Origin: Bacillus marasmi
GTDB taxonomy: Bacteria; Bacillota; Bacilli; Bacillales; Cytobacillaceae
Reading direction: 5' to 3'
Assembly: GCF_902168435.1 (NCBI RefSeq)
Contig: NZ_LR656186.1
Location: forward strand, 1 to 47,880
DNA length: 47,880 nt
The position numbers and the translations under genes were made by a program. The notes beneath the pieces were generated by a model. The model saw only the letters and a list, made by a program, of their open reading frames with translations, was not told where the DNA came from and made no database searches. Each line of letters begins with the position of its first letter. Position 1 is the stretch's first letter. Positions 43,147 to 47,880 of this stretch are shown here, piece after piece.

Positions 43147-43626
43147 GTGAATATCTTAATTGTGACGGTTGGAAAATTAAAAGAAAAGTATTTAAAACAA
43201 GGCATTGATGAATTTGTGAAACGGATGTCGGGATACGCTAAGCTCGAAATCATCGAGGTGGCCGATGAAAAAGCACCAGAGGAACTGAGTGCAGCAGAAA
43301 TGGAACAAGTAAAGCAAAAGGAAGGCGAGCGGATTTTAAGTAAAATCAGTCAAGATACACATGTCATTGCACTAGCGATTGATGGGAAAATGAAATCATC
43401 AGAGCAATTAGCAGATGATCTAGACAAGCTTGCTACATATGGAAAAAGTAAAATTGCCTTTGTCATAGGTGGTTCGTTAGGCTTGAGCGATGACGTGTTG
43501 AAACGAGCTAGTGAAAAGCTATCTTTTTCAAAAATGACGTTTCCTCACCAAATGATGAGGTTGATACTGGTTGAGCAGATTTATCGAGCATTCAGGATCA
43601 ATCGCGGGGAACCTTACCACAAGTAA
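43147..43626 (+). CDS. rlmH: 23S rRNA pseudouridine-1915 N3-methyltransferase RlmH (YydA/OrfX)
   Basis: SPOUT-class methyltransferase acting on helix 69 of 23S rRNA in assembled ribosomes. The 159 residues start [19 protein letters not shown] and show the knotted SAM site ([17 protein letters not shown]). They end in the invariant [11 protein letters not shown]. The start is GTG at 43147 behind a weak GCGGGGAT. The last 22 bases of the gene, with 8 bases after the stop, are repeated at 47640-47669 on the far side of the ger operon. In staphylococci the same gene end is the attachment site of SCC elements. Confidence 0.96.
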
Positions 43627-43634
43627 ATGAGGTT
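43605..43634 (+). repeat. Direct repeat 1: rlmH 3' end (attachment-site-like)
   Basis: Thirty bases from codon GGG of GEPYHK to 8 bases beyond the stop. 28 of 30 match 47640-47669, including an unbroken 20-base run TACCACAAGTAAATGAGGTT. The repeats stop matching at the same point on the right. This is the rlmH-linked copy. Confidence 0.85.
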
Positions 43635-43676
43635 CTTCTTCGTTAATATTCTTGAACGTAAAAAACTTGAAAGAAT

Positions 43677-43707
43677 AAGATAGTAGAGTTTTTTTCTCTA
43701 CTATCTT
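43677..43707. terminator. Bidirectional terminator between rlmH and the ger operon
   Basis: Twelve-bp stem AAGATAGTAGAG / CTCTACTATCTT with a 7-T loop, between convergent rlmH and gerC-type gene. Confidence 0.85.
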
Positions 43708-43709
43708 TA

Positions 43710-44840
43710 CTAATCAACAACACCTGTGCGTTTTATTTCAACCTTAATAGTTGAATTTAACTTTAAACTTGAATACTTTTCCCTCAAATCTTTATCACTT
43801 AAATTGGAATATTTTCTGATGCTTTTTATTTTTCTTCCAATGCCAATTGGATCAGTATTTAATTTTCTTAACTCCTCAAGAAAATCCCCCAATTCTTTGT
43901 TTAGTTCTTCCCCAAGCAGTTGCTCTAATTTTTTTATAGATTTCCTATTGTTAAGAGGAATTGCAGGTTGTACTTCTATAGTTGAAACAGTTATCGTTGC
44001 GTTTAGATAAAAGTCATCTTCGTTAAATAATTTAACCTTTCCGTGGTGCTTTATTGGGTGAATAGTAATGTTAAAATTATCTCCTTTTGGCTTTTCGACT
44101 AATGGTATTCCCTTTTGTTCTAAAACCTCTATAGGAATGTTTAATGTTATATCTCCCAGAGAAGCCTTGCGATTGGAGAATAATTTTATGAACAAGGTTT
44201 TTGTCAAAGAAATAGAACCGACCATTTTATCATCCTTTAATAATGCCACCTTTTCAATATAGGGTGCTGCACCATTCTTATTCGATATAATCGGTAAGGT
44301 GGGATCGATGCCAATTTCATATAGAGTGGAGAAAAAATCATGCAGGTTGGAGTTTATTAACATTTCCTTCCTTTCTTGCTTATCCAATAATTGATAAATA
44401 TATGACCCCATTTCCGGGTATTCTTCATAGATATTATTTTTAATGACTTCTTCAGTATTGTTTGTAATGGCCAAAAAAATTAATGATCCAATGCTGCTTT
44501 CTCGTTGCATCGAATCTAAAAAAGATGAAATTCCTATCTTTTCACTTATATCTTTATCAAATAGTATTGTCCTCAATTGTCCAGATGTAATGTCGTGGCT
44601 TGTTTGTTGTTCTAACCTTTGTCTTATTTGTTTGCTTGTAGAACCGACGGCAGAAATGGTTTCACTTGTTTTCTCTTCTTTACGGTCGAATTGCAACAAG
44701 CTAATAGAGCCTTTATATGTATCTTTATCAAGTAAATCATAACCAATAATAGTTGAAATCCCTTGCCTTTCTAATATTTTTTCAGGGGGCACACATGCAG
44801 TACAGATAAGACAACAAAATAGAATAAGCCATTTTTTCAT
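43710..44840 (-). CDS. Spore germination lipoprotein, Ger(x)C family (C subunit)
   Basis: Lipoprotein subunit of a GerA-type germinant receptor, anchored outside the inner spore membrane. The 376 residues start MKKWLILFCCLICTACVPPE with lipobox CTAC. Family features include RQGISTIIGYDLLDK and the GQLRTILFDKDI region. The start is the ATG behind GGAG at 44840; an in-frame extension upstream would hide the signal peptide and is rejected. Last gene of the A-B-C operon, 13 bp after the B gene. The germinant cannot be deduced. Confidence 0.92.
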   Translation of the reverse strand: MKKWLILFCCLICTACVPPEKILERQGISTIIGYDLLDKDTYKGSISLLQFDRKEEKTSETISAVGSTSKQIRQRLEQQTSHDITSGQLRTILFDKDISEKIGISSFLDSMQRESSIGSLIFLAITNNTEEVIKNNIYEEYPEMGSYIYQLLDKQERKEMLINSNLHDFFSTLYEIGIDPTLPIISNKNGAAPYIEKVALLKDDKMVGSISLTKTLFIKLFSNRKASLGDITLNIPIEVLEQKGIPLVEKPKGDNFNITIHPIKHHGKVKLFNEDDFYLNATITVSTIEVQPAIPLNNRKSIKKLEQLLGEELNKELGDFLEELRKLNTDPIGIGRKIKSIRKYSNLSDKDLREKYSSLKLNSTIKVEIKRTGVVD

Positions 44841-44853
44841 CGTTTCAACTCCG

Positions 44854-45939
44854 TTAAGATTGTGAAAAAATTTTAGATTTAATGATTGAAATGAAATATA
44901 ACAAGAATGGATAGATAAACCATAGGTAAAAGCCAACATGACCAACTTGATCAAAAAAAAGGTTATTGTCGACTCTTTTGGTGACAAAAAAACTCGTGAT
45001 AAAAATGATTATGGAGATTAACCATATACCATGTTTTTGTTTTAAATGAAATATTTGTTTTAATCCTTTTGAAGAAATGAACAGGTATAAACATAAATTT
45101 GGAAAAATAACCAATATCCAAAATGGAACGGCAATAAATTCAAACCGTTCAAGAAATGGAAAATGGACCGTGCTTATCATACTGACCACAGGCCAAATAT
45201 ATTTTTCCAATTCCTTTTGACTAAAAAATAAGATCGAAATAACCGTTGTGATAAATACAAGAAGTGTAGTAAACCAGATTGCTAATTGACTGAAAAAAAG
45301 CAGCTTTTTTTTCTCCTTTATAAATGGAAAAATAAAAAATAAAGTTTCAAAACCTAACATTGTAAAATTGGTTTTAAATACTCCTTTCATTATTTGTTCA
45401 GGGGTTGCCGCCATGACAGGTAAAATTCTAGTGAAGTTTATCGATTCAAGCGGTTGATAAAAAACAAATACTAGCCATATCGTCATTAAAAAGGATAAGA
45501 AACATATCCCTGCAATTACTCTGAATCCGCCAGAAACGGCATAAATGGTTACGAATAATAGCGCTAAAACATCTACCCATTCATCAACTCCTTCATATCC
45601 CCATGTCAGAGACAATTCAACATAATCGATGATGATAGAGTAAAGTGCTGCAATAAAGTAAATAACAATAAAGGTATTGATGATACTGCCTATAAAGCGA
45701 CCAAATAAATTCTCGTGTATTTCATAAAGATTACAGTTTTCATATTTAGCAAGGATGCGCATTATTATCAAAATGATAACACTTATGAATAGTCCAGAGA
45801 GTAGAACGCTGATCCAGGCATCTTGCTTAGCTTCAAGAAAAACAAATCTAGGAACGCCAAGTATGCCCATTCCGATTTGTGAAGTGTGAATGATAAAGAA
45901 AGCAAGATAGGCGTTTACAAAACTAATATTTGATTTCAT
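44854..45939 (-). CDS. Spore germination transporter-like protein, GerB family (B subunit)
   Basis: Polytopic membrane subunit related to amino acid/polyamine transporters; the B subunit of germinant receptors binds the germinant in studied cases. The 361 residues have about ten hydrophobic segments and a conserved start (SNISFVNAYLAFFIIHTSQI followed by GMGILGVPR). The start is the ATG at 45939 behind GAGGTGG; a TTG 12 bases earlier lies within this site. It starts 8 bp after the A gene stop, so it is coupled. Confidence 0.92.
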   Translation of the reverse strand: MKSNISFVNAYLAFFIIHTSQIGMGILGVPRFVFLEAKQDAWISVLLSGLFISVIILIIMRILAKYENCNLYEIHENLFGRFIGSIINTFIVIYFIAALYSIIIDYVELSLTWGYEGVDEWVDVLALLFVTIYAVSGGFRVIAGICFLSFLMTIWLVFVFYQPLESINFTRILPVMAATPEQIMKGVFKTNFTMLGFETLFFIFPFIKEKKKLLFFSQLAIWFTTLLVFITTVISILFFSQKELEKYIWPVVSMISTVHFPFLERFEFIAVPFWILVIFPNLCLYLFISSKGLKQIFHLKQKHGIWLISIIIFITSFFVTKRVDNNLFFDQVGHVGFYLWFIYPFLLYFISIIKSKIFSQS

Positions 45940-45947
45940 TATCCACC

Positions 45948-47432
45948 TCAAATTTCATCTAAATCGGTATCTGTTTTTTTAGATTTCCTTCCTATCCGGA
46001 ATAATTTTAATGGACGATTAACAACAGGACGTTTCCTATAAAAATGGTGTGGGAGACGTATAAAGGCGTATTTTAAATCCTTTATCCTAAGCGGGTATAG
46101 AGGTGCAAGATAAGGTCTATTTAAGGATGTCAACTTTAACAAGTGGACAATCAGTACACAGACACCGATGATAATCCCATTAAAACCCCAAACACCTGCT
46201 AGAATAATGAAAGGAAATCTGGCGATTCTTATAGCAGTACCCATTTCATAAATTGGAGCTGAAAAGGCTCCTAAGGCACTAAATGCCACGATTATAATTA
46301 AAATGTTGCTAGTTAAGCCAGCCTCAACAGTTGCTTGACCAATCACAATCCCTCCAACAATCCCCATTGTTTGACCTACTTTTGATGGTAGACGTGCTCC
46401 TGCCTCTCTAAGTAATTCAATTAAGAATTCCATTAATATTGCTTCTAGTAACGGGGGAAAAGGAACTTGTGAACGTGATTGCCCAATGACAATTAACAAT
46501 TTAGATGGTATAAGTTCATAGTGATAGGTGAGGACTGCCACATAGAAGGCTGTAAAGAGCAATGATCCAGCCATAGCTAAAAACCGTATAAATCTAATGA
46601 AAGTACTCAAAGACCAGCGTAAATAAATATCTTCTGTTGATTCAAAAAACGAAAAAAAATTAGCAGGCCCAATAATAGCTACTGGGCTTCGATCTAAAAG
46701 GATACCAACCCGTCCATTTAAAATAGAATAGAGAAATCGATCAGGCAGTTCTGTCATGATAAACTGAGGAAAAAAAGAATAATGATTATCTTCAAGACAC
46801 TGTGCCAAAACTGAACTGTCACTTATATCATCCATTGTAATAGTTTCAAGCTTCTGCTTAAGTGTTTTTAGTATGTCTTCATCCGTTAAATCTTTAATGT
46901 AAATAATTCTTAATTTCTTCTTAACACGTTCTCCTATTTCTAATTCATCTGTACACAAATTAGAATTATTTAGATTTTGTCTGATAATTTTTATATTAGA
47001 AGACAATGATTCTGTAAACGAAATTTTAGGGCCGTATACCAAAGATTCAGTTTCTGCTTTCTCGATGGATCTTTCAATTGGATTAGCACAATTTACTAAA
47101 AGGGCTTTATTTTCTTTTAATAAGTAAATATAAACGAATCCATTTAAAAGTGAAGAAATAATTTCTTGTTCCTTAAAGTCAATCTTTACCTCGTCAATAG
47201 GGATATTTTTTATTAAATAAGAGTAGGTTATATCTTTTTTTGGCAGCTGTTGAATGAATTTAATAACATATTCATTAACTGTTTCAGTCTTAATTAAATT
47301 TTTCATAAAGATAACTTCCAGACAATCTCCAGCGACCTCAATTGTCCTGCAAAGTAAATCTGGTGATTGGTTGAGGATATTTTTAATTTTTTTATAATTT
47401 GGGCAATTATTGTTATTTGGTGTGTTTGCCAT
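45948..47432 (-). CDS. Spore germination protein, GerA family (A subunit)
   Basis: Large subunit of a germinant receptor in the inner spore membrane. The 494 residues have an N-terminal cytoplasmic region (about 1-270), then a membrane domain with the family signature PFPPLLEAILMEFLIELLRE and GARLPSKVGQTMGIVGG. A basic C-terminal tail follows (YRKRPVVNRPLKLFR). The start is the ATG at 47432 behind AAGGA; a longer frame begins 84 bases upstream without a proper site. Gene order A-B-C equals the gerA and gerB operons rather than gerK. The operon is AT-richer than its left neighbours and lies between two rlmH-end repeats. Confidence 0.93.
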   Translation of the reverse strand: MANTPNNNNCPNYKKIKNILNQSPDLLCRTIEVAGDCLEVIFMKNLIKTETVNEYVIKFIQQLPKKDITYSYLIKNIPIDEVKIDFKEQEIISSLLNGFVYIYLLKENKALLVNCANPIERSIEKAETESLVYGPKISFTESLSSNIKIIRQNLNNSNLCTDELEIGERVKKKLRIIYIKDLTDEDILKTLKQKLETITMDDISDSSVLAQCLEDNHYSFFPQFIMTELPDRFLYSILNGRVGILLDRSPVAIIGPANFFSFFESTEDIYLRWSLSTFIRFIRFLAMAGSLLFTAFYVAVLTYHYELIPSKLLIVIGQSRSQVPFPPLLEAILMEFLIELLREAGARLPSKVGQTMGIVGGIVIGQATVEAGLTSNILIIIVAFSALGAFSAPIYEMGTAIRIARFPFIILAGVWGFNGIIIGVCVLIVHLLKLTSLNRPYLAPLYPLRIKDLKYAFIRLPHHFYRKRPVVNRPLKLFRIGRKSKKTDTDLDEI

Positions 47433-47497
47433 TTGAAAAATCCTTAATAATTTTTTCTTATTATTTGAAAAAGAAAACCATTTTATCCACGGCTTTA

Positions 47498-47532
47498 TAA
47501 AAAAGTAAGTCCACAAAGTAGTTTATGGACTT
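47498..47532 (-). terminator. Hairpin with T-run in the ger leader
   Basis: On the minus strand AAGTCCATAAA pairs with TTTGTGGACTT around a 4-base loop and is followed by ACTTTTTTAT. It lies 65-100 bp upstream of the A gene, so it is either a terminator closing off outside transcription or an attenuator. Confidence 0.55.
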
Positions 47533-47639
47533 TATTTGAACTGAATTGTAAGAGATAATAGATGTAATTAACTGTGTGGAAACAGGATAAGTTGTGTGCG
47601 TAATTAAAGAGGGCGATAAATCCTCATTTAGATACAACA

Positions 47640-47669
47640 CGGTGAACCGTACCACAAGTAAATGAGGTT
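47640..47669 (+). repeat. Direct repeat 2: orphan rlmH 3' end (attachment-site-like)
   Basis: Matches 43605-43634 at 28 of 30 bases. Its two differences (GGT for GGG, CCG for CCT) are synonymous in the GEPYHK-stop reading of rlmH. No rlmH gene precedes it; the frame upstream closes after a few codons (IQH). Flanking it, CCTCATTTA (47622-47630) and TAAATGAGG (47659-47667) form an inverted repeat. Confidence 0.85.
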
Positions 47670-47880
47670 ACTTATAAGAATGCCTCTACTTATTGTTGGG
47701 GAGGATAAAAAATTAGGTTAAACATACGATTCTAATAAATAGAGGGAAAAATTCCTCCCTCTATAAATGTTGATGTACCAACGGTTTGAGCCATTGGTAG
47801 TGCATCAAAAAAATATTATTCGACAAATATTACTACAGTATTTTCATATTATGTGAATCTATTCCAATACATGGGTACGC
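47670..47880. other. Right edge, no gene seen
   Basis: With the ger leader and repeat 2, the 448 bases from 47433 to the window end carry no credible gene. One further hairpin (TAGAGGGA at 47740-47747 with TCCCTCTA at 47756-47763) could be a terminator for a gene beyond the window. Whatever follows the orphan rlmH end is cut off here. Confidence 0.6.

Follow-up and report, generated by a model that had tools for sequence, protein, structure and literature searches.

In staphylococci, methicillin resistance is spread by cassettes of the staphylococcal cassette chromosome (SCC) type, and in spore formers it is the germinant receptors that set when spores leave dormancy. SCC-like islands that occupy rlmH and encode large serine recombinases (LSRs) have already been published for Enterococcus and several Bacillota; the accessible portions of these reports place such islands in Bacillus and Paenibacillus, so that spore formers are already covered (PMC10061031), and include B. 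cereus and Geobacillus among the hosts (PMC10581047). Here we analyse a stretch of 47,880 bases from Bacillus marasmi (contig NZ_LR656186.1 of assembly GCF_902168435.1; the window), in which a germinant-receptor operon, gerABC, lies between two copies of the 3′ end of rlmH, and for which an initial reading of the letters (the original prediction) had proposed an SCC-like insertion at rlmH. We consider it very likely that the segment is a recombinase-less, SCC-like cassette carrying the germinant-receptor operon.

Boundaries and content of the germinant-receptor cassette

The two 39-bp repeat copies (43596-43634 and 47631-47669) are identical at 33/39 positions, and over their last 30 bases differ at two, both synonymous third positions of rlmH codons (GGG/GGT and CCT/CCG). 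The second copy lies 4,035 bp from the rlmH 3′ end, on the far side of an intact gerABC operon; the repeat some 4.0 kb downstream across a complete operon and the two synonymous mismatches over 30 bp, both claimed at the outset, are thus as described, with Pfam matches for RlmH, GerA, Spore_permease and GerAC. Allowing up to three mismatches, an 18-mer core has 2 matches in the window against 0.03 expected from shuffling, and a 24-mer has three in the whole 4.64-Mb assembly (reversed control, 0), i.e. the two in the window and one on contig C37 (C37:184439-184462), some 350 bp short of its end. The repeat is therefore not scattered through the genome; scattered copies at many unrelated places were what the original prediction had named as counting against it. 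A fourth, weaker core copy of more degenerate pattern (C37:182492-182515) scores 23.2 bits with a weight matrix for which as many as 121 sites resembling the rlmH end were taken from 80 named Bacillaceae rlmH loci; the four sites together span 23-39 bits, against a maximum of 8.1 bits on one strand of 1 Mb of simulated sequence.

Adjoining the cores are inverted-repeat arms that had previously escaped notice, TAAATGAGG 3′ of copy 1 and CCTCATTTA 5′ of copy 2. The sequences TAAATGAGGTT (3′ of copy 1) and CCTCATTTAGAT (5′ of copy 2) are likewise inverted repeats, and TAAATGAGGTT occurs again 3′ of copy 2. The unit is thus bounded by the rlmH-end core together with inverted-repeat arms. From the repeat copies alone the crossover is confined to the interval from GA to TAA, and no more finely. 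The features are as follows.

43147..43626, + strand: rlmH (Pfam SPOUT_MTase, 206 bits); its 3′ end is the attachment site, the last codons being common with the element
43609..43626, + strand: core copy 1, GAACCTTACCACAAGTAA, the rlmH-side attachment site (38.7 bits, weight matrix)
43610..47644, no strand: cassette 1 (4,035 bp), delimited by the A of the copy 1 GA and the G of the copy 2 GA
43624..43634, + strand: right inverted-repeat arm of cassette 1, TAAATGAGGTT (arm and dyad comparison)
43710..44840, - strand: gerC, GerAC-type, 376 aa (Pfam Spore_GerAC_N and Spore_GerAC), intact in carriers
44854..45939, - strand: gerB, GerAB-type permease subunit, ATG start at 45939 (Pfam Spore_permease, 247 bits)
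45948..47432, - strand: gerA, GerAA-type, 494 aa from the ATG at 47432 (Pfam GerA, 523 bits)
47622..47630, no strand: left inverted-repeat arm of cassette 1, CCTCATTTA, complementary at 9/9 positions to TAAATGAGG
47644..47661, + strand: core copy 2, GAACCGTACCACAAGTAA (36.1 bits, weight matrix)
47659..47669, + strand: right arm of cassette 2, TAAATGAGGTT, pairing with AACCTCACTTAGAT ahead of copy 3 on C37
47662..47880, no strand: first part of cassette 2, truncated where the contig stops; contig C31 has a further copy of 47750-47880 at its end

By Pfam the operon encodes the A, B and C subunits of a GerA-type receptor; the open frame of gerA extends beyond its ATG to 47516, and gerC has a lipobox-like CTAC (by eye). 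Cassette 1 otherwise contains two frames of fewer than 100 aa, outside the Pfam scan, and no ccr gene complex was found among its scanned frames, cassette 2 being only partly sequenced. Accordingly, the proposed SCC-like insertion at rlmH stands as regards the core repeats, the arms and the rlmH site, but since ccr is lacking the cassette is not an SCC by strict definition. In a base-composition check, suggested together with the original prediction, the GC fraction of 43627-47643 is 0.322, below that of all 80 upstream windows of the same size (0.349-0.417).

The window is a whole contig (C14) and position 47880 is its end, a point missing from the original prediction. Both contig ends concerned, of the window contig and of C37, are repeated elsewhere in the genome, which would explain why the array is broken in the assembly. 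The third core copy is oriented as expected were C37 to follow the window contig, and is preceded by AACCTCACTTAGAT; the fourth is preceded by AAAAACTTATTTA. Some C37 genes are also found downstream of rlmH in congeners (malate:quinone-oxidoreductase-like, by eye, in genome G001 and transporter-like in G002), with only partial synteny. On this arrangement the array would apparently comprise at least three cassettes, namely the 4,035-bp ger cassette, an unread second and a third of 1,947 bp (C37:182518-184468; L004 17710-19660), the largest frame of which encodes a sensor histidine kinase (NCBIfam gives AtoS at 258 bits and KinD at 179 bits as the top matches, neither of them reaching its cut-off). 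The suggestion that the segment is a cargo-only cassette and one unit of a larger array agrees with these data.

The cassette in other genomes

The comparison covered 193 genomes of the family, this one (G000) included, and carriers were found among these 193. A GerA match at E ≤1e-125 is present in 77/193, and 20 stretches around such matches were retrieved. The whole core-to-core unit recurs at 94.6-95.2% DNA identity in G180, G191, G163, G151 and G188 (one other genus), the alignment sinking to background level past copy 2 and, in units that do not adjoin rlmH, also ahead of copy 1. In G191 and G188 the cassette lies at rlmH (RlmH 82% identical); in G180, G163 and G151 there is no rlmH within the 17, 18 and 7.5 kb retrieved around it, the far-side flank being common to G180 and G163 and different in G151. 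The ger cassette therefore occurs across genera, both at rlmH and at sites with no rlmH nearby, and the mobility originally proposed for the segment is borne out by the same cassette standing elsewhere in other genomes, where the homology breaks off at the cores. Three further stretches retain one end (the left in G057, 86%; the right in G187 and G169, 83%). Of the other 12, 11 contain all or parts of the operon, mostly at 73-77%, and G055 contains a partial match only (65%); none of these 12 has a core at the ger ends. In G144, one of them, the operon has rlmH on one side and, on the other, an additional core whose arms are different.

Transfer by homologous recombination alone, in which transformation would have moved the ger segment with its conserved flanks and the repeat would be a relic of duplication, could draw on the presence of the cassette at rlmH in two carriers and on the lack of a CcrB-like gene (E ≤1e-70) in all nine carriers (G000 and eight others). 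We regard it as quite improbable, given that in the three two-ended carriers with no rlmH in the stretch the flanks differ and the ends are the same, that the same cassette ends are found at unrelated sites, and that the flanking rlmH of the two rlmH-site carriers is far more diverged than the cassette: gerABC shows synonymous divergence (dS) of 0.08-0.17 across the five close carriers, whereas in rlmH synonymous sites are saturated, precluding a dS estimate, and nonsynonymous divergence (dN) is 0.11-0.12. The notion of an immobile relic, i.e. of a site used long ago and an operon that is now an ordinary resident gene set, would accommodate a host devoid of any CcrB-like gene and the decayed ends of the more diverged ger copies L233-L235. 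Identity of about 95% at the DNA level across genera and at different sites argues for fairly recent movement, and makes this explanation improbable too.

The eight core-bearing stretches comprise five full and three partial units. In all of them gerA, gerB and gerC can be aligned over almost their whole length, and the alignments of 494, 362 and 376 codons from the eight carriers contain zero stops or gaps, with dN/dS of 0.13-0.46. Stops listed for G163, G187 and G169 lie outside these alignments, that query having started upstream of the ATG. The codon comparison thus indicates that the ger genes are intact and under purifying selection.

The original prediction had asked whether relatives all carry the operon here, and whether some carry an empty site. 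No ger proteins were found in the 80 named rlmH loci (up to 10 kb downstream, less where the contig ends), nor any GerA homologue near rlmH in four congeners, whose best GerA is at most 45% identical. In related loci, DNA found beyond the cassette or array directly follows rlmH: in Bacillus sp. MM2020_4 (L043) this is the DNA beyond two cassettes of G191 (98%, 97 bp), and in Neobacillus niacini PL-B1 (L013) that beyond the ger cassette of G188 (75%, 242 bp), the latter match lying in repetitive DNA and being weaker evidence. Two Domibacillus loci (L019/L029) form a clean filled/unfilled pair for an element with a Ccr-like recombinase (96%, 246 bp). Another cassette is shared at 91% by Bacillus sp. 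PAMC26568 and Metabacillus bambusae, from the cassette's first base.

Relatives of GerA at 70-74% protein identity were also seen at three places in G215 (L244, L245) and at five, some partial, in G230 (L236-L238), without rlmH-like cores. Two of the G215 copies, when compared, share 99.6% identity across 3,944 bp although their flanks are for the most part unrelated, which suggests another, unexplained vehicle for ger genes.

Cassette ends, cargo and candidate recombinases across Bacillaceae

Core sites are present in 79/80 named rlmH loci (the exception being L044), and two or more stand in tandem in 40, of which 23 have at least one interval with at least 10/14 complementary arm positions. 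Across 68 core-to-core intervals drawn from the named loci, the window and further stretches, with 14 arm positions compared in each, at least 11/14 were complementary in 28 (0.44% in letter shuffles) and at least 10/14 in 34. When the two ends of each of these 34 intervals were joined as in a circle and the best centre of dyad symmetry was sought, it fell exactly between the G and A of GAACC in 28, a position common to different arm families (ATGAGGTTTT, AGAGGCGGTTTT, GGTAAAGC and CACATGG). We infer that this shared centre, GA, is the crossover dinucleotide, which would place the crossover in copy 1 at 43609-43610. The pattern of left arm plus core occurs in 99/193 family genomes and 17/25 genera, up to nine times per genome, and the reversed control gave 0 hits in every one of the 193 rows.

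Other rlmH cassettes (L007, L011, L017, L152) have ends of a second arm family, AGAGGCGGTTTT with AGGTGCGGTGAACC, which sometimes alternates with the first inside one array. Cores with arms were also seen far from rlmH, in G001 (L154, L155, L156) and in G002 (L158 10576-11304), where one core lies within the 3′ end of a gene that is DinB-like by eye; this suggests secondary attachment sites.

The named loci contain 69 frames of at least 90 aa in 29 intervals (median 2.4 kb), and 36 of the 69 frames were scanned (L007-L077). Among the Pfam families listed (25 of 30, 25 of 51) are FecCD transport, MFS and cation-efflux transporters, short-chain dehydrogenase, GGDEF, glycosyl hydrolase 18, HepT, AIPR and Schlafen AlbA, and strong PADLOC matches in the pooled cassette frames comprise PtuA (5.7e-143; Septu) and AbiU (6.4e-125). 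Germination genes are, on this diversity, one cargo among many.

CcrB-like genes (E ≤1e-70) occur in 32/193 family genomes and 0/14 controls, and 20 stretches around them were retrieved. In all six members of a clade of LSRs of 561-573 aa (support 100/100), a left end of the arm type of the ger cassette (type-A) is situated at a distance of 2.5-4.3 kb. One of them belongs to a complete type-A element at rlmH in G234, reading rlmH, core, arm TAAATGAGGTTTTTT, 15.5 kb, arm AAAAACCTCATTTAGAT and core, and encoding RadC, a D5_N/DUF5906 protein, the CcrB-like enzyme and an N6-methylase protein. Further copies in tandem, and Ccr-like recombinases near the same left-end type in relatives, thus accompany the cassette design. 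Phylogenetic analysis of 53 LSRs unites 30 Bacillaceae enzymes with staphylococcal CcrB (support 99/94) and places 21 others and CcrA outside this group. Of the 30, 20 had been preselected by CcrB score (for two, L284 and L285, the retrieved stretch contains neither rlmH nor core) and the other 10 had been picked up in rlmH loci through sequence homology; all 10 of the latter group with staphylococcal CcrB. The comparison set came from 32 screened LSR loci, 24 frames being kept by motif, 3 of which duplicate rlmH-locus enzymes. NCBIfam CcrB scores of eight rlmH-region proteins were 318-410 bits for six, 198 for one and 88 for one (263 aa), and 96-224 bits for nine LSRs from elsewhere; the cut-off of NF047343 (900 bits) is reached in 0/193 genomes, the best score being 440.

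The host genome itself encodes two LSRs (PF07508) with weak CcrB matches (96 and 150 bits) and no attachment core within the surrounding 1.5 kb. They were set aside as helpers, the best match of L005 being to XisF and L006 lying beside a repressor-like frame (by eye).

That the segment is instead a passive transposon, with a transposase that recognises terminal repeats ATGAGGTTT and targets rlmH-like ends, appears very improbable. Terminal inverted repeats, many genomic copies and transposase-like genes near some ger copies (by eye) are what it would lead one to expect; however, no transposase figures among the Pfam families listed for the 36 scanned frames, the repeat is an 18-bp rlmH-like core, unlike a short target-site duplication, the dyad centre stays on GA across different arm families, and LSRs of a single clade adjoin such ends.

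For a recombinase-less cassette the mechanism would then run as follows. DNA would enter probably by transformation, conjugation or a helper element, and a CcrB-like LSR supplied by another element would join the cassette ends into a circle with a 46-bp attP centred on GA (predicted junction ...CACGGTG joined to AACCTTACC...). Insertion at the GA of GAACC, whether at the 3′ end of rlmH or in similar sequences elsewhere, would leave RlmH ending in GEPYHK and regenerate the target, so that new cassettes could stack beside rlmH; the host would acquire one more GerA-type receptor and, with it, perhaps the ability to respond to a new germinant.

Several observations weigh against the reading of the segment as a site-specific cassette. 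Because the nine carriers lack a CcrB-like gene at E ≤1e-70, both the helper and the movement are deduced indirectly, and for five of the six type-A recombinases one end only was observed. The copy 1 core differs at three positions among near-identical cassettes, more than expected if it always moves with the element. Half of the intervals (34/68) fall below 10/14 arm complementarity, arms taken from separate cassettes pair better than shuffles do (mean 8.4 vs 7.4), as arm types recur, and the dyad is off centre in 6/34 joined ends, including those of this array's third cassette, with a shift of 3. The placing of C37 next to C14 is a probable one, drawn from matching arms and partly shared gene content. 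The 73-77% ger homologues repeat within genomes without cores at their ends, so that ger operons also spread in some other way, and a crude scan for a strict sigma-G promoter upstream of gerA gave no match.

Nevertheless, the cassette reading remains that which we favour, and with rather less assurance we would extend it to the family: the Bacillaceae rlmH 3′ end may well be an integron-like platform, on which tandem arrays of small recombinase-less cassettes are shuffled between genera in trans by a GA-cutting CcrB-like recombinase, such that germinant receptors, sensor kinases, transport and anti-phage genes are interchangeable and the time of spore waking is horizontally swapped.

In five of the six type-A elements a frame of about 185 aa overlaps the start of the CcrB-like gene.

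L278, 13841-14392: frame of about 185 aa
L279, 8890-9453: frame of about 185 aa
L281, 4423-4974: frame of about 185 aa
L282, 11943-12494: frame of about 185 aa
L283, 10067-10624: frame of about 185 aa

That of L279, the sole one scanned, has a Pfam resolvase domain, and the catalytic-serine motif YxRVST reads YTRNTS (by eye); the frame may encode an inactive partner. Separately, L286, L287 and L288 contain a diverged rlmH (63.5-64.8% identical to that of the window) with a Ccr-like recombinase 2.6 kb away; this gene may be a second rlmH carried by an element.

Relation to known mobile elements

As a discrete, probably site-specific unit that is found across genera, a full receptor operon of this kind would be a vehicle for the spread of germination specificity, and the staphylococcal cassette design extends to about half of the sampled genomes of an environmental spore-former family. 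With a likely recombinase clade and a predicted crossover dinucleotide in hand, movement is directly testable.

The ger cassette resembles SCC in its integration at the rlmH 3′ end (also in two other genomes), its 18-bp core direct repeats, its imperfect terminal inverted repeats, its tandem composites and the CcrB-like recombinases of its complete relatives. It differs in its spore-forming hosts, its small cargo (the ger operon) and its lack of ccr, and the Bacillaceae enzyme that was compared against plasmids (L009, of a clade other than type-A) is 39% identical to staphylococcal CcrB. The nearest label is pseudo-SCC, i.e. an SCC element devoid of ccr. Integrons, too, are tandem arrays of small recombinase-less cassettes at one site, but employ a tyrosine integrase and attC hairpins. 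Tn1546, considered below, belongs to the Tn3 family.

The ECC element, so far as the available text of its description goes, shares with the ger cassette and its relatives the rlmH target, an attachment site of about 50 bp with a dyad, CcrAB-like enzymes and variable cargo, but is 32 kb long and contains ccrAB, in contrast to 4 kb without it (PMC6222049). The PolA-SSB primase islands of Bacillota likewise target rlmH, use LSRs and include some tandem composites; they are defined by primase, helicase and recombinase genes, and small cargo-only or ger cassettes are not encountered in the portion of that account at hand (PMC10061031). Among the matches listed in open-licence literature, neither a germinant receptor as cargo of an rlmH cassette nor family-wide arrays of small recombinase-less cassettes was found in print. 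In the effect on its host, a parallel is the spoVA2mob operon borne by Tn1546, in the accessible part of its description likewise a mobile element that alters spore properties (PMC8005191); there, however, a transposon carries a spoVA operon, whereas here what appears to be a site-specific rlmH cassette carries a germinant receptor.

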